Virus record (IMG/VR): IMGVR_UViG_3300035698_020136
Location: 1 to 33,425 of that record
From: a virus
Length of the DNA: 33,425 bases
Reading direction: 5' to 3' (one strand)
Of the stretch, positions 3,069-33,182 are shown piece after piece (the first letter of the stretch is position 1; the number at the start of each line of letters is the position of its first letter). A program made the position numbers and the translations under genes. Under the pieces are notes generated by a model that was not told the origin of the DNA, did not search any database, and saw only the letters and a program-made list of their open reading frames with translations.

Positions 3069-3365
3069 TTATATAGGCAATTCATCCCAAGTAATTTCAA
3101 ATATGAATAGTTCTTTTCTCTCATAAGGTAGTCTATTTAAACAATAATTATTTGTAACAAGATTATCTTTTATAAGTCTGAGCATCCTAATAAATTCCTT
3201 ATGGGTAAGATTGTTTCTGTACACTGTGTAGATAAGTAAATTTTTATGTGCTAGACAACGATTGTAGATAAGAGAATTTATGGTAGAGAGTTCATAGATT
3301 TTTCTCTTCACCACAAAGTCAGTATCTGCATCCTTTAAGTATCTAGCTTGTTTAGCACTTAGCAT
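3069..3365 (-). CDS. Unknown early protein, 98 residues
   Basis: I chose the ATG at 3365 because AAAGGAGA sits at ideal distance, and because an in-frame ATG at 3431 lies upstream of the likely transcription start and has no good ribosome site. The protein is basic, has no membrane segment, and mixes helices (KQARYLKDADTDFVVKRKIYEL) with a hydrophobic strand near the C-terminus (ELFIFEITWDELPI). I recognise no family. It is the first minus-strand gene away from a divergent control region with an operator-like inverted repeat, a position where regulators often sit. That role is only a positional guess. Confidence 0.62.
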   Translation of the reverse strand: MLSAKQARYLKDADTDFVVKRKIYELSTINSLIYNRCLAHKNLLIYTVYRNNLTHKEFIRMLRLIKDNLVTNNYCLNRLPYERKELFIFEITWDELPI

Positions 3366-3389
3366 AATCTTCTCCTTTGTTCTAAAGTC

Positions 3390-3418
3390 TTGACAGATAT
3401 ATTCACTTAACCTACTAT
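3390..3418 (+). promoter_or_regulatory. Sigma70-type promoter, rightward
   Basis: A perfect -35 box TTGACA (3390-3395), a 17-base spacer and TACTAT (3413-3418, 5 of 6 consensus) predict a start near 3425. That leaves a leader of about 23 bases with AAGGAGG at 3438-3444 before the ATG at 3448. This is the best promoter match I found in the window. Confidence 0.66.
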
Positions 3419-3427
3419 TTCTGTCAA
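3399..3427 (-). promoter_or_regulatory. Candidate leftward promoter overlapping the rightward one
   Basis: The minus strand carries TTGACA at 3427-3422, but the -10 region is weaker (GAATAT at 3404-3399 with a 17-base spacer). The predicted start near 3392 leaves a short leader before the gene starting at 3365. Polymerase could not occupy both this and the rightward promoter at once. Confidence 0.4.
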
Positions 3428-3447
3428 GCATATAATAAGGAGGAATT

Positions 3448-4284
3448 ATGTATAAGAGAGGATACCCTTGGTTTAAGTTAAATAACTTATTTTACCGAGA
3501 ACCTAAAACAGTACTCTTGTTAGGTGAAAAAGGTCCTTATGCCATAGGTATTTATATAATGTTAACAGGACTGATGGCTGATACATGTGAGATACATTAT
3601 GATGAATGTACATTCAATCTTAAGAGATTGGCTCAAGATTTTAACATCTATCACACAACATCACTTATACATTGGCTAGACATACTAGCTACATTCGAGC
3701 TTATCTCCTTTACAAGTGATAAAACTACTTGCACTATAAAAATGCCTAAGTTAATGGAATTACGAGGTAAAGATGCTAAATATAAGGTTAAGAGTGATAA
3801 AAGTAACGATACTTCAACGACTCTAGAGAAAGAAAGAGAAAAAGAACTAAGAATAAGAAATTCTAAATTAGAGAGAAGTACTCACTCAGCTAACAAAGGT
3901 ATGTTAGCTAATTCTGTAGGAGTTTCTAAAATTGCTTCGCAATTTTATGGGGAGCATAAAATTAGTTTACCGGTAAAAGAAAGTGACCTAAGTGAAGATC
4001 AAAAAAGTGTATATTTTGTATGGGGAGAGTTTGGAGAAAAATCTAGATGGCATAAAAAAGAAGATTACAACATTATAGAAGATTTAACGGTTCTGTTTGA
4101 TGATATGAGGGAAGACTATATCGTAGGAGAGCTAGAAAATATCTCAAAAAATTTAGAAGCTAACTTGAAAAAAAAGGAGAGCCGTAATAAATTTGGATTC
4201 CTTTATCTTGTTAACTGTCTTAAAAAATCAAATAACAGAAAAGAGGAAACTCCTGTAATATATGATGACACTCTAGCAAATTAG
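3448..4284 (+). CDS. Phage replication-initiator-like protein (DUF4373/Lin1244-type N-terminal domain)
   Basis: The N-terminal 105 residues follow the pattern of a winged-helix domain found at the start of many phage replication proteins: WFKLNNLFYREPKTVLLL, then GPYAIGIYIMLTGLM, then LKRLAQDFNI. A charged linker (about residues 120-145, KEREKELRIRN) leads to a C-terminal helical region (about 180-270) of the kind used for partner contacts or helicase loading. The 278-residue length fits. It is the first rightward gene behind a strong promoter, has an excellent AAGGAGG ribosome site, and lies beside a 590-bp gene-free region that might hold an origin. The family call is from pattern memory and the replication role is inferred. 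Confidence 0.62.
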   Translation: MYKRGYPWFKLNNLFYREPKTVLLLGEKGPYAIGIYIMLTGLMADTCEIHYDECTFNLKRLAQDFNIYHTTSLIHWLDILATFELISFTSDKTTCTIKMPKLMELRGKDAKYKVKSDKSNDTSTTLEKEREKELRIRNSKLERSTHSANKGMLANSVGVSKIASQFYGEHKISLPVKESDLSEDQKSVYFVWGEFGEKSRWHKKEDYNIIEDLTVLFDDMREDYIVGELENISKNLEANLKKKESRNKFGFLYLVNCLKKSNNRKEETPVIYDDTLAN

Positions 4285-4319
4285 GTAGTATTATTAGGTA
4301 ACTTTTAACAGGAATTTAT

Positions 4320-4640
4320 ATGAAACATTTTTTATGCAAGTGTATAGACGGGGTAAAAGACAAGAAAGTCATTACCTGGTCTCTTAAAGAATCAGCCTTA
4401 AAATATAATTTAGATGTTAGACAAGAAATGATTGAGATCTTTAAAGATCCAGAAGGAGTGAGTGTTATACTTTTATTAGGTGAGTCCCATTATTCAGTAC
4501 ACACCTTTTTTGAGCACAATTATTATATGCTTGACTTATTTACTTGTAACCCTGATACTCCCTGTAAGAAAGTACTTATGGAGTTTGCTAGACTCACTGG
4601 ATCTAAAATAGTAGATGTGGTAGAACTAGATAGGGATTAA
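4320..4640 (+). CDS. speH: S-adenosylmethionine decarboxylase proenzyme (prokaryotic SpeH type, pyruvoyl enzyme)
   Basis: The 106 residues carry the diagnostic core GESHYSVHTFFEHNYYMLDLFTC split as follows. Glu55-Ser56 is the self-cleavage bond that turns Ser56 into the pyruvoyl cofactor, His61 is the processing histidine, and Cys76 is the catalytic cysteine. The spacings of 5 and 20 residues from the serine equal those of characterised bacterial enzymes. The reaction makes decarboxylated SAM, the aminopropyl donor for spermidine. The next gene, 2 bases downstream, is a spermidine-synthase homologue, so the pair forms a pathway. Some relatives in phages and bacteria have changed to decarboxylate ornithine or arginine; sequence inspection alone cannot exclude that. 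The protein is somewhat shorter than typical SpeH at the N-terminus. Confidence 0.9.
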   Translation: MKHFLCKCIDGVKDKKVITWSLKESALKYNLDVRQEMIEIFKDPEGVSVILLLGESHYSVHTFFEHNYYMLDLFTCNPDTPCKKVLMEFARLTGSKIVDVVELDRD

Positions 4641-4642
4641 CT

Positions 4643-5314
4643 ATGCTGTGTGTTAAATTAGAAAATGATTCTAGCACAAGTTTTGTACACGTAAGAAAAC
4701 TTATTGCTCACAAAAAAACTCAATACCAAGAATTGATAATTGCAGATTTAAAGGGGTTTGGTAAATCTCTAGTCTTAGATGACGAATTACAATCCTGCTA
4801 CATAGATCAAATACCTTATCACGAAGCTTTAATTCATCCTTACAAGCCTCATAAACTAGAAAAGGTACTCATCATAGGGTCTGGAGAAGGAACCTCTGTA
4901 GACATCGCTTTAAGGCGAGGCTGGAAAAATGTAACAGCTATAGATATAGATCATCAAGCTATAGAACTTATAGATGAACACTTATCCGACTGGAATAATC
5001 ATATATACAAAAGAACTGATGAGTTCAATATGATATTTGGTGATGCTTTAAAAGTATTGAAAGATACTCCAAACGATTGGTATTCTTACGTAGTGTTTGA
5101 CTTAACATCGAAAGCTATAGTAGAAAATAAGGAGGATTGGATAAGTCAAATACACAGAGTGTTAGTACCAGGGGGTTTAATGACAGCCCAAGATGGATCT
5201 AAATATGAACAGTCCTATTTATTAGATACCGTGTTTGAATATTTTGACACTGAGCCCAATTTTAAAACTATGTTAGACTGGCGATATCTTCACATTGCTA
5301 AAAAAGATTTTTAA
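4643..5314 (+). CDS. speE: Spermidine synthase-like aminopropyltransferase
   Basis: The N-terminal beta part has TQYQELIIAD, GKSLVLDDELQ and YHEALIHP (Tyr59-Glu61), all typical of polyamine aminopropyltransferases. The Rossmann part has VLIIGSGEG (75-83, usually GGGDG), Asp101 in AIDID for the donor ribose, and Asp134 in FGDAL. The family's DxTDP active-site loop reads DLTSKA here (Asp153, Ser156): the first aspartate is kept, but the second, which normally contacts the amine acceptor, is serine. At 223 residues it is shorter than the usual 280-300. It follows the decarboxylase gene by 2 bases, so it probably uses that product. The fold and pathway are firm; the acceptor amine may not be putrescine. 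Confidence 0.88.
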   Translation: MLCVKLENDSSTSFVHVRKLIAHKKTQYQELIIADLKGFGKSLVLDDELQSCYIDQIPYHEALIHPYKPHKLEKVLIIGSGEGTSVDIALRRGWKNVTAIDIDHQAIELIDEHLSDWNNHIYKRTDEFNMIFGDALKVLKDTPNDWYSYVVFDLTSKAIVENKEDWISQIHRVLVPGGLMTAQDGSKYEQSYLLDTVFEYFDTEPNFKTMLDWRYLHIAKKDF

Positions 5315-5342
5315 TAATAACCTAATAATAATATAATTAAGT

Positions 5343-5372
5343 AGTCTCGGCATTTTGGTTTATGCTTCGACT
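5343..5372 (+). other. Imperfect hairpin upstream of the speE terminator
   Basis: AGTC (5343-5346) pairs with GACT (5369-5372), and after a small internal loop GCAT (5350-5353) pairs with ATGC (5362-5365) around TTTGGTTT. It lies 30 bases after the speE stop and 20 bases before the terminator hairpin. It may be part of the same regulatory leader or simply protect the transcript end. Confidence 0.35.
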
Positions 5373-5392
5373 CTTTTAGGATTTCTCTTTCT

Positions 5393-5420
5393 AGTGGAGG
5401 AAGTAAATCTCCACTTTTTT
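5393..5420 (+). terminator. Intrinsic terminator after the polyamine genes
   Basis: AGTGGAG (5393-5399) and CTCCACT (5409-5415) form a 7-bp stem around a 9-base loop, followed by a run of T to 5420. It ends the operon that starts at 3448. Its left arm is also part of a longer competing stem (5396-5432). Confidence 0.72.
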
Positions 5421-5432
5421 CTTACTTCCTCC
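5396..5432 (+). promoter_or_regulatory. Competing 11-bp stem, possible antiterminator
   Basis: GGAGGAAGTAA (5396-5406) is the exact reverse complement of TTACTTCCTCC (5422-5432). Forming this stem uses bases 5396-5399 of the terminator's left arm and places its right arm in the loop, so the two folds exclude each other. The longer stem is itself followed by broken T runs and could instead be a second, weaker terminator. Confidence 0.5.
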
Positions 5433-5523
5433 TTTAAATTATTTTAATTTTTTTTATGTTTAATTTCTTTTACTATTTAAGTATTATTAATTAAACCAAC
5501 AATTATAACTGAAGGAGATAGTT

Positions 5524-9224: not shown

Positions 9225-9537
9225 TTCTACACTAAATCTAGTCAACATTGAAATTACTGCTCTAAAAGTTAAACAGAAGATAAAGTCTCTAGATATTATA
9301 GAGATGAAGAAACTAGAGTCTTTAATTAGGATGAGAAAGGATATTATAACAACTCCTGAAGTAAAGGATGTCTATGAGGAGGTAGACGAAGAGATATTTA
9401 CTGACGAGGAGATATTACAGTTTTTAGCCGAGAGGAAGGCTTCTATAAATGAGCAAGTTAAAGAAGAAAAAGTCAAATCTAAGGCTTCAAAGAAAAAGAC
9501 AAACAAAAAGGCAAAGAAAAAAATATCTAAAAGATAA
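9217..9537 (+). CDS. Small acidic/Lys-tailed protein upstream of the terminase, candidate small terminase
   Basis: The ATG at 9217 gives 106 residues; a longer reading begins only with TTG at 9181. The N-terminal half is helical (NIEITALKVKQKIKSLDIIEMKKLESLIRMRK). The middle is acidic (EEVDEEIFTDEEI), and the tail is almost entirely Lys, Ser, Ala and Arg. Its last 89 bases are also the start of the large terminase in another frame. Position directly before the large subunit, small size and a charged tail fit a small terminase subunit, but I see no HTH, so this is a weak call. Confidence 0.55.
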   Translation: MDNSTLNLVNIEITALKVKQKIKSLDIIEMKKLESLIRMRKDIITTPEVKDVYEEVDEEIFTDEEILQFLAERKASINEQVKEEKVKSKASKKKTNKKAKKKISKR

Positions 9538-10981
9538 CCCTAACTTTGCTGTACAGTTAGCTTGGAAACGAGGTCTTCTTCTATATAAGCTTCAAGATCA
9601 TCAATATTCTTTATATAATATTTTTGAGTCAGCTATAGCTATTAAAACTGTAGTCAATGCTTCAAGACGATGGGGAAAGACAACTGTAGCTTTACTATAT
9701 GCTATTATCTATGCCTTAAAGCATCCAGGTTCTGAGATTAAGATTGCTACCAAAACTCAGAAAGCTCTTAAGAAAACAATGCTACCTATATGGAGGATGC
9801 TTTTAGAAGATGCTCCCGTAAAATATAAACCTAAATGGTCAAGTAAAGAGGATTGCTTTCTATTTCATAATAACTCTAGACTACATATCCATGGTACAGA
9901 CAATCAAAGGCATGATGGTTTAAGAGGTCAAAGGTGTGATTTGGGGATAGTAGATGAGGGATCCTTCTGTTCAGATTTAAGATATATTGTACAGTCTATC
10001 TTATTACCTCAAACACTTACTTGCGGTGGTAAAATAATCATACTCTCCACACCAGAACAAAAAGCTACCCAATCCGGAGAAGAGTTTAAGGATTTTTGTT
10101 TAGAAGCTAAAAGAAAAGGATCTTATTTTTGTAGAGATATTTACTCTAATACATTCATTACTGAAAAAACAATAAAGCTATATAAAGATGAATGTGGTGG
10201 AGAAGATTCTATTGAATGGCAGGTAGAATATCTATGTAGGTTTAAGATAGATCCTGAAAAAGCAATCGTACCTGAATGGCGATCTGATAAAATGGTGATA
10301 GATGAATCATTTAATCCGGAGAGTAACCAATTCTTTAAATTCTACCATAAATATACATGTCTAGATCTAGGGGTAAAGAGAGACTGGACTTTTGGACTGT
10401 GCGGTTATTATGACTTTCAAGAAGCTACTCTATATGTATTAAATGAGTTTTATGTGAGAAATACAACTACGCCAGAAATTGCTAGGTTATTGAAGGAGGC
10501 TGAGTTGGAGACTTTTGGGAATCTCCCCATGTATAGAAGAGTATGTGACTCAGATAACCCTCAACTTGTAAATGACTTTGTCCATCTACATAAGATAGGA
10601 ATTTCGGCTACAGATAAAACAACTTTAGAAGCTATGATCAATACCATGAGGATGATGGTTGGTGGAAACCAAGTGAAAGTACACCCTAGATGTGACTTTC
10701 TAATAAAAACGATGGAAAACGGTGTCTGGTCTGACAGCGTGGCTGGAAAACTACACAAAGACTTTGGTAGGACTAAAGAATTAGGTCATATGGATGCAAT
10801 TGCAGCACTCATGTATTTATGCAGAAATCTTAATAAAACAACTAATCCAGTTCCAACAACTTATGGCTTAAATCTCACTAATACACTTATATCTAACAAC
10901 GTAATAGAGTCACATAACAAAAAACAATTTAAAAAAGCATTTTTGACTCCATCAAAGAGAAGCAAAAAGCGATCCAAATAA
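9449..10981 (+). CDS. terL: Terminase large subunit
   Basis: The packaging motor is recognisable in all parts. Walker A is ASRRWGKTT (residues 71-79) and Walker B is LGIVDEGSF with Asp169 and catalytic Glu170. A coupling motif ILSTPEQK is at about 198-205. The RNase H-like nuclease has Asp306 in CLDLGVKRDW, an acidic VCDSDNP and a final HMDAIAALMYL. The 510-residue length is normal. It would translocate DNA into the prohead and cut it. The first 25 residues are very basic and are read from the same DNA as the Lys-rich tail of the gene before; AGGAAGG precedes this ATG and no later ATG would keep Walker A in a sensible place. The portal follows 16 bases downstream. Confidence 0.96.
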   Translation: MSKLKKKKSNLRLQRKRQTKRQRKKYLKDNPNFAVQLAWKRGLLLYKLQDHQYSLYNIFESAIAIKTVVNASRRWGKTTVALLYAIIYALKHPGSEIKIATKTQKALKKTMLPIWRMLLEDAPVKYKPKWSSKEDCFLFHNNSRLHIHGTDNQRHDGLRGQRCDLGIVDEGSFCSDLRYIVQSILLPQTLTCGGKIIILSTPEQKATQSGEEFKDFCLEAKRKGSYFCRDIYSNTFITEKTIKLYKDECGGEDSIEWQVEYLCRFKIDPEKAIVPEWRSDKMVIDESFNPESNQFFKFYHKYTCLDLGVKRDWTFGLCGYYDFQEATLYVLNEFYVRNTTTPEIARLLKEAELETFGNLPMYRRVCDSDNPQLVNDFVHLHKIGISATDKTTLEAMINTMRMMVGGNQVKVHPRCDFLIKTMENGVWSDSVAGKLHKDFGRTKELGHMDAIAALMYLCRNLNKTTNPVPTTYGLNLTNTLISNNVIESHNKKQFKKAFLTPSKRSKKRSK

Positions 10982-14442: not shown

Positions 14443-15087
14443 ATGATTGTAGTATTAGGTGCTGCTGGATTTGCCAGAGAAGTAGCTTATAATATTTTAA
14501 CTATTAAAGGATCTTTCCAAAAGATAGTGTTTGTAGATGATACTACCGAAATAAAGAATATTAAGTTAATGGGTAAGGATTATCCGGTAGTAAAGGATTG
14601 GAAGTTTCCTACCGAGTGTAAAGAATTTTTAATAGGTATTGGATCTCCTAAAGTTAAACAAATACTAGTTCAAAAAGCTCTATCTGCTGGATTAACTCCA
14701 GCAGATACCCTAATTCATCCTAGAGCCATGGTGCAAGATGCTAAGATAGGTGTAGGTGGTGTAATTACTGCTGGTGTAGTTATCACCACTAATGTAACTA
14801 TTGGTGACTATATAATACTAAACTTGAATGTGACTGTAGGTCATGATGTCATTATTGAGGATTATGTGACAGTTAATCCTTTAGCAGCTATTTCAGGAAA
14901 TGTAGTCTTAAAAAAAAGAAGCTTTATAGGTACTTGTGCTTGTATAAAAGAAAAGATTACTATAGGTGAAGAAGCTATAGTTGGTGGGCAATCTTTTGTG
15001 AATAAGGATGTTGTAGACATGATTACCGTTGCCGGAGTACCTGCAAAAGTACTTAGAACATCTTTTATACCTTTCATGGACTGTTAA
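14443..15087 (+). CDS. PglD/NeuD-type sugar O/N-acetyltransferase (left-handed beta helix)
   Basis: The protein has both parts of this family. An N-terminal Rossmann-like domain opens VLGAAGFAREVAYNI (residues 4-18). A left-handed parallel beta helix with hexapeptide repeats runs from about 90 to 205 (AKIGVGGVITAGVVI, NVTIGDYIIL and onwards). His134 in VGHDVIIEDYV is the position of the catalytic histidine in PglD. Members acetylate UDP- or dTDP-linked 4-amino sugars, or sialic acid. The 214-residue length fits. It lies 8 bases after the scaffold and before the capsid gene, an unusual place for a metabolic enzyme. With the DegT aminotransferase at 843-1943 it could make an acetamido sugar. 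Confidence 0.92.
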   Translation: MIVVLGAAGFAREVAYNILTIKGSFQKIVFVDDTTEIKNIKLMGKDYPVVKDWKFPTECKEFLIGIGSPKVKQILVQKALSAGLTPADTLIHPRAMVQDAKIGVGGVITAGVVITTNVTIGDYIILNLNVTVGHDVIIEDYVTVNPLAAISGNVVLKKRSFIGTCACIKEKITIGEEAIVGGQSFVNKDVVDMITVAGVPAKVLRTSFIPFMDC

Positions 15088-17226: not shown

Positions 17227-19191
17227 ATGTCTGTAAAACTCACTGTAAATGGCAAAACCTTTGACTATCCTTCAGTACATGATGAAAATTGGGGACCTGA
17301 GAGTACAGCTTGGGCACAAGAAGTATCGACTTCTTTAACTGATCTAGAAACACTCAATTATACAGGACTTCATACTATAGGACCAACAGGTCTTCAAGGA
17401 CTAACTGGAGTTCCAGGACTAGAAGGAACTCGTGGTTCTCAAGGAACAACAGGTTTACATGCTACAGGTATTCAAGGAGCTACAGGATTAAAAGGTCTTG
17501 ACGGTATTAGAGGTGCTCAAGGATTAACAGGACTTAGAGGATTAACAGGACTTATAGGACCTCAAGGTCAGACAGGTGCCCAAGGTAGAACAGGAGTAAG
17601 AGGACATACTGGTATTATTGGAAATACAGGTCTTCAAGGACTAACTGGTTTTAGAGGAGTCACAGGACATCAGGGATATACAGGAGTAAGAGGACAGACT
17701 GGTATTATTGGAAATACAGGTCTTAGAGGAATGACTGGGATCCAAGGGATCACTGGTATTATTGGAAATACAGGTATTATTGGAAATACAGGTATTCAAG
17801 GAATTCAAGGAAATACAGGAGCTTTAGGACAGACTGGTATGGCTCCAGATAATCAAGGTACAACAGGTTTCCAAGGTGTAACTGGATTTCAAGGAAAGGA
17901 TGGTTTTCTAGGTGGTACTGGACCTCAAGGAATGACTGGACCACTAGGTAATACAGGAGCTCAAGGTTATACAGGTTTAACAGGATATACAGGAGCCCAA
18001 CCTCCTAATCAAGGTGAAACGGGAGTACAAGGTATTCAAGGAGCTACTGGAATACAAGGTATTCAAGGGGATACTGGTATTAGAGGGATGACTGGAGCTC
18101 TAGGTAATACTGGAGCTCTAGGTAATACAGGAGCTCAAGGTCCAACAGGTTTCCAAGGTGTAACTGGAATTCAAGGTAATACAGGTATTATTGGAAATAC
18201 AGGTCTTCAAGGACCTACTGGTATTATTGGAAATACAGGTATTCAAGGAAATACTGGAATTCAAGGTAATACTGGTATTATTGGAAATACAGGAATTCAA
18301 GGAGTCACTGGACATCAAGGTAATACAGGTCTTCAAGGACTAACCGGTGCTGGAATTCAAGGTGTGACTGGAATCTTAGGAATTGATGGAGTAACTGGAA
18401 TTAGAGGAATGACTGGAATCTTAGGAATTGATGGATCTCAGGGAGAAACTGGTACACAAGGACTAACTGGCTTATTAGCCGATCAAGGTGTTCAAGGTTT
18501 TCAAGGAGTAACTGGCGTACAAGGAGTAACCGGACTAGTTGGAACTACAGGACTAGAATATCAAAATGACATATATTACGGTTCTACTGGAAGTGAGGAA
18601 ATTCCATCTCATACATTTAAAGGTAATACCGGAATGGGTATTGCTGCCGAACTTGGAACATATAAAGCAACTATTCTTAAAACTGACTCAGGATCTGTAA
18701 ATTGGGATTTACAGGTTTGGTATTATGAGACAGGAAACACTTATATTTATGGGAGCAGAAAATCAGTTATTTCTGGTCCTCAGATTAGTTTTGTAAAAGC
18801 AGGAGATGCTTCTACAAAAGATGCTATTCCTCTTACTTCGGGTACTAACTTTGGAGAATTTGATTGGAGACCTAAAGGTGGTCCTGGATCTGTAGCAGCT
18901 TTTGGAGCTAAACAATCAGGAGCTACAGGTCTAGCTGCTAAATTACACTTCTCAACTCTAAATGTCACAGGTAATATAACAGAAAGAATGGTTATTAAAC
19001 AAGATGGTTTAGTAGGTATTAACAAAACAGCTCCTACAGTACAATTAGATGTCATTGGGGAAATAAATACTAGTACTTGTTATCAAACAGCAGGAGTAAC
19101 AGGACTTTCAGGTGTTTTAGAAGGTGCTACTTTTATAGCAACACTAGATGGTGGAATAGTGACTGGAATGACCGGTGTCGGCTGGAGCTGA
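17227..19191 (+). CDS. Collagen-like fibre protein
   Basis: After a 46-residue head with NGKTFDYPS and WGPESTAWAQEV, a pattern common at the N-terminus of phage fibres, residues 47-443 are Gly-X-Y triplets. Many are Gly-X-Thr (GNTG, GVTG, GIIGNTGIQG). Short breaks occur at about 77-81, 205-211, 257-263, 374-376 and 416-421. The last 210 residues are globular and include ERMVIKQDGLVGINKTAPTV, typical of fibre tips. It should form trimeric triple-helical rods with a C-terminal binding head. It lies between decoration and connector genes, so it could be a head fibre or a tail fibre. The repeats make copy-number change likely. Confidence 0.9.
   Translation: MSVKLTVNGKTFDYPSVHDENWGPESTAWAQEVSTSLTDLETLNYTGLHTIGPTGLQGLTGVPGLEGTRGSQGTTGLHATGIQGATGLKGLDGIRGAQGLTGLRGLTGLIGPQGQTGAQGRTGVRGHTGIIGNTGLQGLTGFRGVTGHQGYTGVRGQTGIIGNTGLRGMTGIQGITGIIGNTGIIGNTGIQGIQGNTGALGQTGMAPDNQGTTGFQGVTGFQGKDGFLGGTGPQGMTGPLGNTGAQGYTGLTGYTGAQPPNQGETGVQGIQGATGIQGIQGDTGIRGMTGALGNTGALGNTGAQGPTGFQGVTGIQGNTGIIGNTGLQGPTGIIGNTGIQGNTGIQGNTGIIGNTGIQGVTGHQGNTGLQGLTGAGIQGVTGILGIDGVTGIRGMTGILGIDGSQGETGTQGLTGLLADQGVQGFQGVTGVQGVTGLVGTTGLEYQNDIYYGSTGSEEIPSHTFKGNTGMGIAAELGTYKATILKTDSGSVNWDLQVWYYETGNTYIYGSRKSVISGPQISFVKAGDASTKDAIPLTSGTNFGEFDWRPKGGPGSVAAFGAKQSGATGLAAKLHFSTLNVTGNITERMVIKQDGLVGINKTAPTVQLDVIGEINTSTCYQTAGVTGLSGVLEGATFIATLDGGIVTGMTGVGWS
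17365..18555 (+). repeat. DNA-level repeats coding the collagen-like region
   Basis: Nine-base GGA/GGT-based units recur in phase for about 1.2 kb, including many near-identical runs such as GGTATTATTGGAAATACAGG at about 17619, 17700, 17755 and 18183. Such identity at synonymous positions points to recent duplication or recombination between units. Confidence 0.8.
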
Positions 19192-24077: not shown

Positions 24078-26174
24078 ATGGCTTATGAACTAAACCCATT
24101 AAAGAAAGATGAAAAATTACTTAAAGGTGATGAAGGGGAAGAAGCTAAGATACTTACTCAAACTGAAGGTGTGATGACTCCTGGTGGAGCACAAGACACA
24201 AGTCAGCTGGGTACGGGTCAAGTAGCTCCTACTGGTGGGCAAGATGTATCTACTCAACAAAAATATGCTGATATTAATAGAGAAAAAGCTGTTGACTTAG
24301 CTAAAAAAACCGGTGGAATGTTGAGGGGAGATATTACTTCAGCACAGGCAGCTTTAACAGCTGCTGGTGAACAATACAAACAAGATATTGAAGCAGGCAC
24401 TAATAAATTAGATCAACCTTTCTACAAAAAAGCTAGTGATTTGTTAACAAATCAAAAAATAGCCCCAACACCTTCTTATGCTCCACCAAATATTTATGCT
24501 CCTATACAGTCTAATGAACAATTCACCGGTCAAGAAAAAATTGTTAGTTCAATGCCGGTTAAGACATCTTCACCTATTATAAGTATAAAGCCAGTGCAGA
24601 AAAGGAATCCTAATAATATTGTGAGCATAATGCCTTTTGGTGGACCTGAAAGAATGGAACCAATTATTAAGACAACACCTATCAGTAAAACAGAGGCTAT
24701 AGAGCCTATAGTTAGTACAATGCCAGTTAATACAACACCTGCTATTTCCTCAGATCCTGTACAGATAATACCTGTTCAAGAACCACCTATAGAAGGTCCT
24801 CCTCCAAAAACTGAATTAGAATTAAGTATAGAGGAATTTTTAGCTGATCAGGAAAACTTAGATCAATTCAATAGTCTTTATAATGCTGAATATAATCCTG
24901 AAAGATATATACAAGGTCAAGACTATTATGCAGAAGCTAACAGACAAGCTGAAAAAGCTCAAGCATCTGCTAAGTTAATAGAGGACATGGCTGGAAGACA
25001 AGAATTGATTGCTAGAACTTATAATAGACCTTCAGGTAGATTTTCTGCAGGAACTTTAGCACTTGATGAAGCCTTACTCTCTTCAAACCCTGAAGCTTAC
25101 GGTGAACTTCAAACAGCTGCTGACACAAGTCTAGGACTCCCTGGACAGATAAAAGATATAACTGAACAATCTTTAAGTGATTATTTAGCCGGTAAAGAAA
25201 CCTCAGATCTTACTCGTCAACAAATGAGAGAACAATTTGACCTAACGAGAGAAGAGCAAGAAATTAGAGATAGATCTGATGCTATGAAATCTCAAGCACA
25301 GGGTGATTATGAGAACTATTTAAAATATGTTCAGGATGCTTATGGTGTACAAGAAGGAATTTCAGCTACTAATTATTTTGATACCCCACAAGATTATGCT
25401 AATATACAAGCTCAAAATGTAGCTACCGCTGAAGATTATGCTAGAATGCAAGCTCTTGAAGAACTTACGGGTGGACTCGGAACACTTACTCCTTTTTCAG
25501 AACAAGCTGGTCAATATTCACAGTATATAAATCCTGCTGATGATTTTAGACGAGCTGAATTTGAATCAAAAGTTAAGGATACAAAAATAAATAGAGTCAA
25601 TGCAGCAGCAGCAGAACGAGCTAGATTAGAAGCTATAGCTAGAGCTGAGCAGGATGCTGAAGATGTTGAGTCAGAAGCAAATCAGAAATCAAAAGGAGCT
25701 GTTATTGGAGGAGGGATTGGATACACTATAGGTGGACCTGGAGGAGCTGCAGTAGGTGCCGTTGTAGGACATACTATTTCAAATATAGTGTGCTTTGACC
25801 CGGCAACACCTGTTGAAATGTTAGACCGATCTACAAAAGCTATAAAAGATATTGAAGTTGGGGATATTTTATATGAGGGTGGTAAAGTCTATACTATTTC
25901 TAAACACATGAACAGTCACCAGATGTTTGATTATGAAGGTGTCTTAGTTACAGGAAAGCATGCTGTAAAAGAAGATGGTTTGTGGATAAGAGTAGAAAAT
26001 TCTAAACTTGCCAATATTTCTAAAAAATCTTGTGATCTAGTTATATCTTTATGTTCAGAAGAGCATTTAATTATATCTAAAGGCATTATTTTTAGTGATT
26101 ATGCTGAAATAGATAATGATCAGGGTCTTACAGATGAACAATGTCTGGTTATAAAAAATATAGGAGTTAAGTAG
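24078..26174 (+). CDS. Probable internal/ejection protein with a C-terminal Hint (hedgehog/intein-like) domain
   Basis: The N-terminal 250 residues are flexible and contain three IVSxMP motifs (155, 181, 211) among Pro/Gln-rich sequence. A long helical middle (about 250-535) has Gln/Glu/Ala-rich coils. Residues 538-571 form a glycine zipper (GAVIGGGIGYTIGG, then GGAAVGAVVGH) able to insert into membranes. Directly after it Cys572 starts a Hint domain: CFDPATPVEML (block A), IKDIEVGDILYEGGKVYTI, then VTGKHAV with the T-x-x-H motif (block B). The final His-Asn and following Cys/Ser of a full intein are absent, so it may cleave without splicing. The position among ejection-type proteins suggests an internal virion protein; this is inferred. 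Confidence 0.8.
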   Translation: MAYELNPLKKDEKLLKGDEGEEAKILTQTEGVMTPGGAQDTSQLGTGQVAPTGGQDVSTQQKYADINREKAVDLAKKTGGMLRGDITSAQAALTAAGEQYKQDIEAGTNKLDQPFYKKASDLLTNQKIAPTPSYAPPNIYAPIQSNEQFTGQEKIVSSMPVKTSSPIISIKPVQKRNPNNIVSIMPFGGPERMEPIIKTTPISKTEAIEPIVSTMPVNTTPAISSDPVQIIPVQEPPIEGPPPKTELELSIEEFLADQENLDQFNSLYNAEYNPERYIQGQDYYAEANRQAEKAQASAKLIEDMAGRQELIARTYNRPSGRFSAGTLALDEALLSSNPEAYGELQTAADTSLGLPGQIKDITEQSLSDYLAGKETSDLTRQQMREQFDLTREEQEIRDRSDAMKSQAQGDYENYLKYVQDAYGVQEGISATNYFDTPQDYANIQAQNVATAEDYARMQALEELTGGLGTLTPFSEQAGQYSQYINPADDFRRAEFESKVKDTKINRVNAAAAERARLEAIARAEQDAEDVESEANQKSKGAVIGGGIGYTIGGPGGAAVGAVVGHTISNIVCFDPATPVEMLDRSTKAIKDIEVGDILYEGGKVYTISKHMNSHQMFDYEGVLVTGKHAVKEDGLWIRVENSKLANISKKSCDLVISLCSEEHLIISKGIIFSDYAEIDNDQGLTDEQCLVIKNIGVK

Positions 26175-31142: not shown

Positions 31143-33182
31143 ATGTCGAACTCTTCAAAAGATATATGTCAAGATAAGTGCGGTAGTGTTGTCGGTGAGA
31201 TATACGGTAATAGAAAAATTTATCAAAGCTTTCTTTGTAATAACGATAATCTATATAAATTAGAACTTAAATTTGCTACGTATATGAGAGTCAATAAGGG
31301 ATCTATTTGTATTAGTCTATCAGAGACTAAACATAGACAACCTATCTTTTCTCAGGACATTCCTTGTGAGAGAATAACCGACAACAGCTGGTACCCTGTA
31401 ATATTTAAACCTATATCAGGAAGTCTAGGGAAAAAATATTATCTAAAAATTGAAGGTATTAACTGTGAAAAAGGATCAGCTGTTAGTGTATATTATAATC
31501 ACTCTTCTAATATAGGTAAGTTATGTATCAACAGTACTGAGCTTATTGGAAGTTTATCTCTAAATACATTTTGTAGTAAGATTGCTAGAACAGTAAATCC
31601 TAACTTACTATATTTAAGTAGAATTAAAAACAAAGCTAAACTAAGTGTTTGTTGCATTACCTACAATCAAGTTAAATTTATAAGACAGACTTTAGATAGT
31701 TTTTTATCTCAAGAAACAGATTTCAAATTTGAAATCTTAATCAATGACGATGGCTCTACTGATGGAACTGCTGAGATATTAAAAGAATATCAAGAAGTGT
31801 ATCCAGATATTTTTAGGATTAACTTTGAACCAGTAAATAGGTTTGCAACTAAATCATTCACTAACCTTCTTTCGAGAGCTAAAACAGAATATGTCTCTCT
31901 TTGTGAAGGTGATGACTATTTCTGTTCCCCACACAAGCTACAGAGGCAGGTAGACTTTCTAGATAATAATAAGGATTGTTCCATTTGTTTTCACCCTGTA
32001 TCTATGATTTCTGATTATGAGACTAGATTGTTTCCAACAGCTAAAGATATCTTTTATAAGGATAAGCTAAACTTAGATGATTTAGCTAAAGGTAACTTTA
32101 TACAAACTAACTCAGTAGTATATCGATGGAGATTTGTAGATGAGGACATAACAAAAGTGTTTCCTGAAGATATACTACCAGGAGATTGGTATTTACATCT
32201 ACTTCATGCTGAAAAAGGAGAAATAGGGTTTTTAAATGAGGCGATGGCTTGCTATAGAATACACTCTGGTGGAATATGGTATGGGGGTACAGATAAAGTT
32301 ATACAGAGATTTGGTCGTCACCATGCTCTTTTTTTTGAAAAGCTAGATAAACACTTTAACAATAAATTTCCTCTTTTCCAAAAAAATAGTGATTATCTAA
32401 ATAAAAGATACAATGACTTAAATTCTTCAGCTAAAAAAGTAAGTGTAGTCTTAATAACTTATAACCATGAAAAGTATATTAGAGAATGTTTAGAATCAGT
32501 CATTGCTCAAGCCAGTGTTAAAGTAGAGTTAGTTATATGTGATGATTGTTCTAAAGACAAAACCCTATCTATTATCAAGAAGGTGCTGAAAGAAAATCGT
32601 AAAACTTTACTGCAAAAAGATTTTGAAATAGTAACTATTTCAAATAAAAAGAATTTAGGCATATTAAGTAATCTTAGAAAAGGAATTGCAAAGGCTTCAG
32701 GAGATTACATAGCTATTTGTGAAGGAGATGATGCTTGGACTTCTCCACAAAGATTATATAGCCACCTAACCTTTCTTGAAAATAACAAAGAGTGTGCTGC
32801 AAGCTTCAATTTCTTAGTTTTATTGGATCAAAACAGTAAGAGCTTCAGTGATCACCCTAGTCATGGGAGCCTTGAACATTACCAAATAATTAAACAGGAT
32901 GGAATGTTAACTGAGAACGTACCAGGTAACTATTCTTGTTGTTTCTATAGAGCAGATATTGCTAAAAGAGTAGTTAAAAAGATAACACTTGCTTCTGATT
33001 GGCACTTTAATGTATCGGTTACTTACTACGGTGGTATGGGTTTTCTAAAAGAAAAAAGTAGCTTTTGGAGAGTCCATGATGAAGGAACATGGGGAGGATT
33101 ATCTACACATAAAAAGCAAGTCCTATATCAACAAGCTAAGGAAATTATCATGAATACCTTTAATAATTCTATAACTTTTTAA
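31143..33182 (+). CDS. Glycosyltransferase with two tandem GT2 (GT-A) domains
   Basis: Residues 1-160 look like a beta-sandwich (SWYPVIFKPISGSLGKKYYLKIEG). Domain one (about 167-395) has VCCITYNQVKFIRQTLDS, the NDDGSTDGT nucleotide-sugar motif (Asp202-Asp203) and the metal-binding EGDD (255-258). Domain two (about 433-655) repeats the plan: VVLITYNHEKYIRECLES, CDDCSKD (467-468) and EGDD (527-530). Both end in matching blocks, YRIHSGGIWYGG and WRVHDEGTWGG, so the halves are a duplication. All key acids are present in both, which suggests two active sites and possibly an alternating chain. It would transfer sugar to a virion protein or host glycan. It has a weak ribosome site (AAGGAAAAG). Confidence 0.9.
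   Translation: MSNSSKDICQDKCGSVVGEIYGNRKIYQSFLCNNDNLYKLELKFATYMRVNKGSICISLSETKHRQPIFSQDIPCERITDNSWYPVIFKPISGSLGKKYYLKIEGINCEKGSAVSVYYNHSSNIGKLCINSTELIGSLSLNTFCSKIARTVNPNLLYLSRIKNKAKLSVCCITYNQVKFIRQTLDSFLSQETDFKFEILINDDGSTDGTAEILKEYQEVYPDIFRINFEPVNRFATKSFTNLLSRAKTEYVSLCEGDDYFCSPHKLQRQVDFLDNNKDCSICFHPVSMISDYETRLFPTAKDIFYKDKLNLDDLAKGNFIQTNSVVYRWRFVDEDITKVFPEDILPGDWYLHLLHAEKGEIGFLNEAMACYRIHSGGIWYGGTDKVIQRFGRHHALFFEKLDKHFNNKFPLFQKNSDYLNKRYNDLNSSAKKVSVVLITYNHEKYIRECLESVIAQASVKVELVICDDCSKDKTLSIIKKVLKENRKTLLQKDFEIVTISNKKNLGILSNLRKGIAKASGDYIAICEGDDAWTSPQRLYSHLTFLENNKECAASFNFLVLLDQNSKSFSDHPSHGSLEHYQIIKQDGMLTENVPGNYSCCFYRADIAKRVVKKITLASDWHFNVSVTYYGGMGFLKEKSSFWRVHDEGTWGGLSTHKKQVLYQQAKEIIMNTFNNSITF

Follow-up and report, generated by a model that had tools for sequence, protein, structure and literature searches.

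Polyamines are required for phage replication, and among the phages with genes of this pathway most have SpeD alone. Pairs of speD and speE have been described in one phage and two algal viruses and restored spermidine in E. coli; apart from these, combinations of two or more polyamine enzymes are known mainly from viruses of eukaryotes (PMC9992855). The phage example is an uncultured freshwater Caudovirales phage with clustered S-adenosylmethionine decarboxylase (AdoMetDC) and aminopropyltransferase genes, both functional in E. coli (Li et al., 2023; PMC9992855). The window analysed here, which spans the whole of IMG/VR record IMGVR_UViG_3300035698_020136 (33,425 bases), resembles that phage in the clustering of the two genes. 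It is set apart, going by the published description, by its SpeE. In the authors' tree, the SpeE of the Caudovirales phage is closest to gammaproteobacterial spermidine synthases (PMC9992855), whereas that of the window is short, belongs to a divergent clade whose acceptor site is altered, and by sequence lies nearest to the Pyrobaculum, Thermus and thermospermine enzymes.

An earlier note on this DNA had presented the pair as less usual in a phage than a lone speD. The pair is indeed rare in isolated phages: a SpeE search of 50,697 phage records gave matches in three only, namely MaAM05, which is bacterial, and two Salmonella records, which were not counted as phage examples. Its novelty is nevertheless smaller than implied, since a phage with a working speD-speE pair had already been reported in 2023 (PMC9992855), and the present pair is thus a further divergent instance and not a new kind of system. 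What is new, judged from the sequences, is a distinct short SpeE clade with a shorter gate loop, a Ser in place of the second Asp/Glu, and no C-terminal extension. "Microcystis phage MaAM05" (GenBank MW495066.1; L002, L147) was considered as a phage speD-speD-speE-speB cluster and rejected, as it carries the bacterial genes aspS, purF, purL, panB, panC and sufBCDS; the record looks mislabelled.

The order speD then speE is common in bacteria (Elusimicrobia, cyanobacteria, Planctomycetes and others). The window shares with these operons the order, the strand and a class 1b SpeD directly before SpeE. The bacterial SpeE differs in being about 300 aa long, with a C-terminal extension and mostly a DxxDP or DxxEP motif, and the phage SpeE sits on a very long stem. 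Cyanophage P-SSM4 and Croceibacter phage P2559S also have a class 1b SpeD that groups with that of the window (support 89/81), but their speD is a single gene without an adjacent speE.

The window record is a viral contig. It encodes a large terminase and a P22-like portal, as identified by Pfam and PHROGs, which together with its origin in IMG/VR upholds the assumption that the pair lies in a phage and not in a host chromosome. A collagen-like repeat protein is also encoded. No tRNA and no Rfam match was found in the window. The large terminase (TerL; 9449–10981) is closest among named phages to that of a phage of Silvanigrella aquatica, and this identity of 27% gives a weak hint of a Bdellovibrionota-like host.

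The two genes lie next to each other on the plus strand, where the earlier note had placed a decarboxylase and an aminopropyltransferase, and the domain matches (PF02675 for the first; PF01564 and PF17284 for the second) agree with that assignment. The speD homolog (4320–4640) encodes a predicted class 1b AdoMetDC proenzyme of 106 aa, and the speE homolog (4643–5314) encodes a short aminopropyltransferase of 223 aa. Only 2 nt separate the speD stop from the speE start. Each gene is preceded by an AGG-type ribosome-binding site, both read directly from the sequence: AGGAA at 4310–4314 (+) for speD, and AGGGA at 4632–4636 (+) for speE. The latter falls within the 3′-end of speD, an arrangement of coupled translation. 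A 278-aa ORF (3448–4284, +) ends 35 nt before speD and probably shares a transcript with the pair; a counterpart with 25% identity precedes the pair in a related phage (G001, below). This ORF has no match among the models of Pfam, PHROGs and NCBIfam, and the nearby replication gene of the earlier note therefore lacks support. The strong promoter that had been proposed for the pair found no support either: the region holds 13 promoter-like matches, fewer than the 14.4 that shuffling predicts, and speD lies only 35 nt from the preceding ORF. On the 3′ side of speE, a hairpin resembling an intrinsic terminator (AGTGGAG...CTCCACT followed by a T run; 5393–5421, +) is the single such hairpin found, against 0.7 expected from shuffles. 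The intergenic RNA at 5315–5523 folds better than its shuffles (z −4.8), and an alternative 11-bp hairpin within it, GGAGGAAGTAA/TTACTTCCTCC, overlaps the terminator hairpin, so that the two are mutually exclusive.

Two sister phages, G001 (IMGVR_UViG_3300033153_004080) and G002 (IMGVR_UViG_3300005613_000249), were found by scanning viral contigs with TerL and the capsid protein. Scans with the window's SpeD or SpeE alone, which rely on short exact patterns, returned no match. Both sisters carry speD and speE in the same order as the window, and their ORFs as called overlap by 13 nt in G001 and 1 nt in G002. The window's SpeE is 50–52% identical to those of the sisters, about equal to the conservation of TerL in G001 (56%). 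In the parts of the two sisters that were compared, nothing corresponds to the leftmost window genes, yet the pair is retained. Its presence across three related phages makes a function likely, and this retention is the best evidence for one.

The window's SpeD matches PF02675 with 61.7 bits (cut-off 25; E 1e-16). It scores 60.2 bits against the TIGR03330 equivalog of NCBIfam, below the cut-off of 75.65, and is for this reason called an AdoMetDC homolog with predicted activity. In Thermotoga maritima SpeD, residues S63, H68 and C83 are essential for processing and catalysis (PMC10407285). They align with Ser56, His61 and Cys76 of the window's protein, which are invariant across all aligned SpeD homologs, in keeping with the expectation that the processing and catalytic residues are all present. 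The Ser56 codon (TCC; 4485–4487, +) marks the predicted site of self-cleavage and pyruvoyl formation.

The family name is not sufficient for identity, since some phage SpeD homologs are ornithine or arginine decarboxylases (PMC9992855; PMC10407285). If the window's SpeD had undergone such a documented shift, its SpeE homolog would have to rely on decarboxylated SAM from the host. In a tree of 53 proteins, however, the paired SpeDs of the window, G001 and G002 fall in the AdoMetDC clade, which is split from the arginine and ornithine decarboxylases with 99/99 support. On the AdoMetDC side lie four of the five enzymes validated as AdoMetDCs, together with every SpeD whose gene neighbours a bacterial speE; the fifth validated enzyme, phiN3, lies on the arginine/ornithine side, in agreement with the published tree. 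Within the AdoMetDC clade, the three paired SpeDs group with the phage SpeDs of P-SSM4 and P2559S and that of viral contig L010, with moderate support (89/81). The Gln/Thr/Phe/Tyr signature of the ornithine decarboxylase SpeDC is absent from the window's SpeD in the alignment, as is placement in the SpeDC clade. One residue may point the other way. In the HTWPE segment, the window's SpeD and the paired SpeD of G002 both have Phe at the Pro position, and one Pro has been reported as fully conserved in AdoMetDCs, separating them from arginine decarboxylases (PMC10407285). The HTWPE Pro is possibly that residue, in which case the Phe would speak against AdoMetDC activity. This Pro is likewise missing from the aligned SpeDs of phiYS40 and phiN3, both validated active AdoMetDCs (PMC9992855), and the paired SpeD of G001 reads HTYPE, so the Pro was probably lost inside the clade. 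A literature search found no papers on the SAM-contact residues of the Thermotoga enzyme, and such residues form no part of the case made here. A shift to arginine or ornithine decarboxylation is a very improbable account of the pair, and an alternative decarboxylase activity of the window's SpeD was judged unlikely given its place among the AdoMetDCs in the tree.

The window's SpeE matches PF01564 with 49.8 bits (cut-off 22.9; E 4e-13) and PF17284 with 23.5 bits (cut-off 22.1). It lies far below the equivalog cut-offs of TIGR00417 (71.2 against 249.55 bits) and PRK00811 (91.5 against 260 bits), and for missing these NCBIfam cut-offs it is not filed as a spermidine synthase. Its architecture is an N-terminal beta domain followed by a complete Rossmann domain, with no C-terminal extension. 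An AlphaFold2 model built with a 64-row homolog alignment reached a pLDDT of 86.1 and a pTM of 0.86, against a pLDDT of only 35.6 without the alignment. The leading structural matches of the model are all aminopropyltransferases (Z 24–25.7 over 218–220 residues, at about 2 Å) and include spermidine, thermospermine and agmatine aminopropyltransferases. When the protein is aligned with its counterparts in the two sister phages and with 80 homologs from bacteria and archaea, the catalytic Asp (D153) and the donor-side residues Q29, Q50, Y59, H60, E61, E82, D103, D134 and Q183 are kept. Domains, fold, and catalytic and donor residues agree, and the prediction that SpeE is a member of the aminopropyltransferase superfamily is well supported.

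Alternatively, SpeE could have lost its activity or could act as a SAM-dependent methyltransferase, with only SpeD in use. Weak methyltransferase Pfam matches were obtained, several family-invariant residues are gone, and a member of the spermidine-synthase fold has turned into an RNA methyltransferase; this protein (8vyd) is the best methyltransferase among the structural matches listed, with Z 18.6. The presence of the N-terminal spermidine synthase domain, the kept catalytic Asp and donor residues, an ORF that stays intact at about 50% identity, and the coupling of speE to speD in three phages all argue against this reading, which we regard as quite improbable. The prediction of an AdoMetDC together with an aminopropyltransferase in a phage is, in our view, well supported.

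The acceptor side of SpeE is another matter. The three phage proteins are 223–229 aa long, against about 300 aa in bacterial SpeE, and they lack the C-terminal extension, which in homologs has a median length of about 63 residues. The gate loop, which follows the catalytic Asp, is five residues shorter, with a stretch of 20 residues where none of the bacterial and archaeal homologs has fewer than 25. The DxxDP motif reads DLTSK in the window (residues 153–157; 5099–5113, +), with Ser156 in place of the second Asp/Glu and Lys in place of Pro157; the Ser is found in all three related phages and in 5 of the 80 bacterial and archaeal homologs. Near-invariant Gly80, Arg87, Glu88 and Asp148 are substituted in the window's SpeE, as is Pro157, and QDGxK stands in place of QAG; the QDGxK and DW motifs are common to the trio. 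From established family structures, we take these changes to map to the amine-acceptor and gate-loop sites. The SpeEs of the three phages form their own clade (100/100) on a stem so long that it cannot be rooted among bacteria, and the best bacterial relatives found, none of them close, share 36–39% identity over partial spans.

With the acceptor side of the active site altered, putrescine cannot be assumed as the acceptor. The earlier note had described an operon for a spermidine-type polyamine; the gene identities, the coupling and the phage context hold, and the product is the part that is not secured. Starting from the decarboxylated SAM made by SpeD, SpeE might transfer to agmatine, to spermidine (yielding thermospermine) or to a larger molecule, so that the product would not be spermidine. 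The remodelling shared by the trio (Ser156, the short gate loop, the lost C-terminal extension, the QDGxK and DW motifs) is consistent with this. So is the company of the protein, as the solved proteins closest to it in sequence include the broad- or agmatine-specific Pyrobaculum and Thermus enzymes and thermospermine synthase. The Glu of its GxGEG motif also differs from the spermine-synthase pattern, but spermidine and aminopropylagmatine synthases are not separable by motifs (PMC11107197). The Ser at the second-Asp position recurs in bacterial and archaeal homologs, as noted, and a predicted ornithine decarboxylase in G001 would supply putrescine, which fits a putrescine acceptor. On balance, transfer to another amine is unlikely, and spermidine is the likely product of the pair. 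The short SpeE offers a natural test of the minimal aminopropyltransferase fold and of the determinants of amine specificity.

The predicted ornithine decarboxylase is a second SpeD homolog of G001 (18815–19171, +; L114:4816–5172), encoded on the strand opposite to speD-speE, between homologs of window ORFs 3069–3431 and 2515–2967. It contains FQLIETSN...HF...YLDVFSC, with the Gln, Thr, Phe and Tyr of SpeDC, the exact columns being our own assignment, and it falls in the SpeDC clade. This signature is described as diagnostic of SpeDC, a pyruvoyl ornithine decarboxylase, and Nitrospirota have been named as a SpeDC-rich phylum (PMC10407285). The G001 protein is 55–64% identical to a family present in 43 of 198 Nitrospirota genomes and is likely an ornithine decarboxylase by these sequence features. 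If it is active, spermidine could be made from ornithine and SAM within one 33-kb contig. The same three predicted activities occur in the speD, speDC and speE modules of Ca. Sumerlaeota (PMC10407285), where speDC is adjacent, whereas in G001 it lies in a separate divergent gene block, and in a phage. Another phage contig, IMGVR_UViG_3300035698_023465, has a SpeDC with 58% identity and no SpeE match. Small phages with a P22-like portal might thus combine a minimal SpeE, whose opened acceptor site yields a product other than spermidine, with a complete ornithine route in the G001 contig, an ornithine decarboxylase/AdoMetDC/aminopropyltransferase route not described for any phage when polyamine genes of viruses were surveyed in 2023; we offer this joint reading tentatively, as one that has a real but minor chance of being correct.

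The account we favour, and consider probable, is a phage polyamine module in which SpeD provides decarboxylated SAM and SpeE transfers its aminopropyl group, most likely to putrescine to give spermidine. SpeD would be made as a proenzyme that cleaves itself at Ser56 to form its pyruvoyl cofactor, and the processed enzyme would decarboxylate S-adenosylmethionine. SpeE, whose gene comes second on the shared mRNA, would pass the aminopropyl group to an amine drawn from the host or, in G001, possibly obtained via the phage's own ornithine decarboxylase. The product may keep translation and replication going in the infected cell once the host's own synthesis of spermidine lags behind, a benefit that we infer along with the two reactions. 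The idea that polyamines neutralise packaged DNA is speculation. A lineage with linked SpeD and SpeE, in which one sister adds a likely ornithine decarboxylase, makes it possible to test whether a phage can produce polyamines free of host regulation.

One or both genes were also found in other viral contigs. L010, a 14.8-kb contig with a partial homolog of the window's portal (35% over 142 aa), carries full-length speE and speD about 3.3 kb apart. L007, a 41-kb viral contig, has an adjacent speE-speD pair with tail fibre and endolysin genes nearby. This pair is immediately preceded by a QueC-like gene (L007:4224–6236), and a large SIR2-like ORF was read downstream; published work connects spermidine with queuosine. 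In L003, a phage terminase gene has as its neighbour a gene for a short SpeE (219 aa; L003:805–1464) that also has neither DxxDP nor the C-terminal extension; no speD was found in this 15-kb contig. In Chloroflexota, single ORFs of 427–440 aa (L059:2075–3355 and L096:2075–3394) match both SpeD and SpeE and apparently represent a natural SpeD-SpeE fusion.

Elsewhere in the window, a tail-region protein (24078–26174) has a C-terminal part (CFDPATPVEMLDRSTKAIKDIEVGDILYEGG) that resembles a Hint/intein-type domain. A DegT-type sugar aminotransferase (843–1943, −), a PglD-like hexapeptide acetyltransferase (14443–15087, +) and an apparent two-domain glycosyltransferase (31143–33182, +) are encoded by genes without counterparts in the compared parts of both sister phages; the three are possibly genes for glycan or surface-sugar modification.
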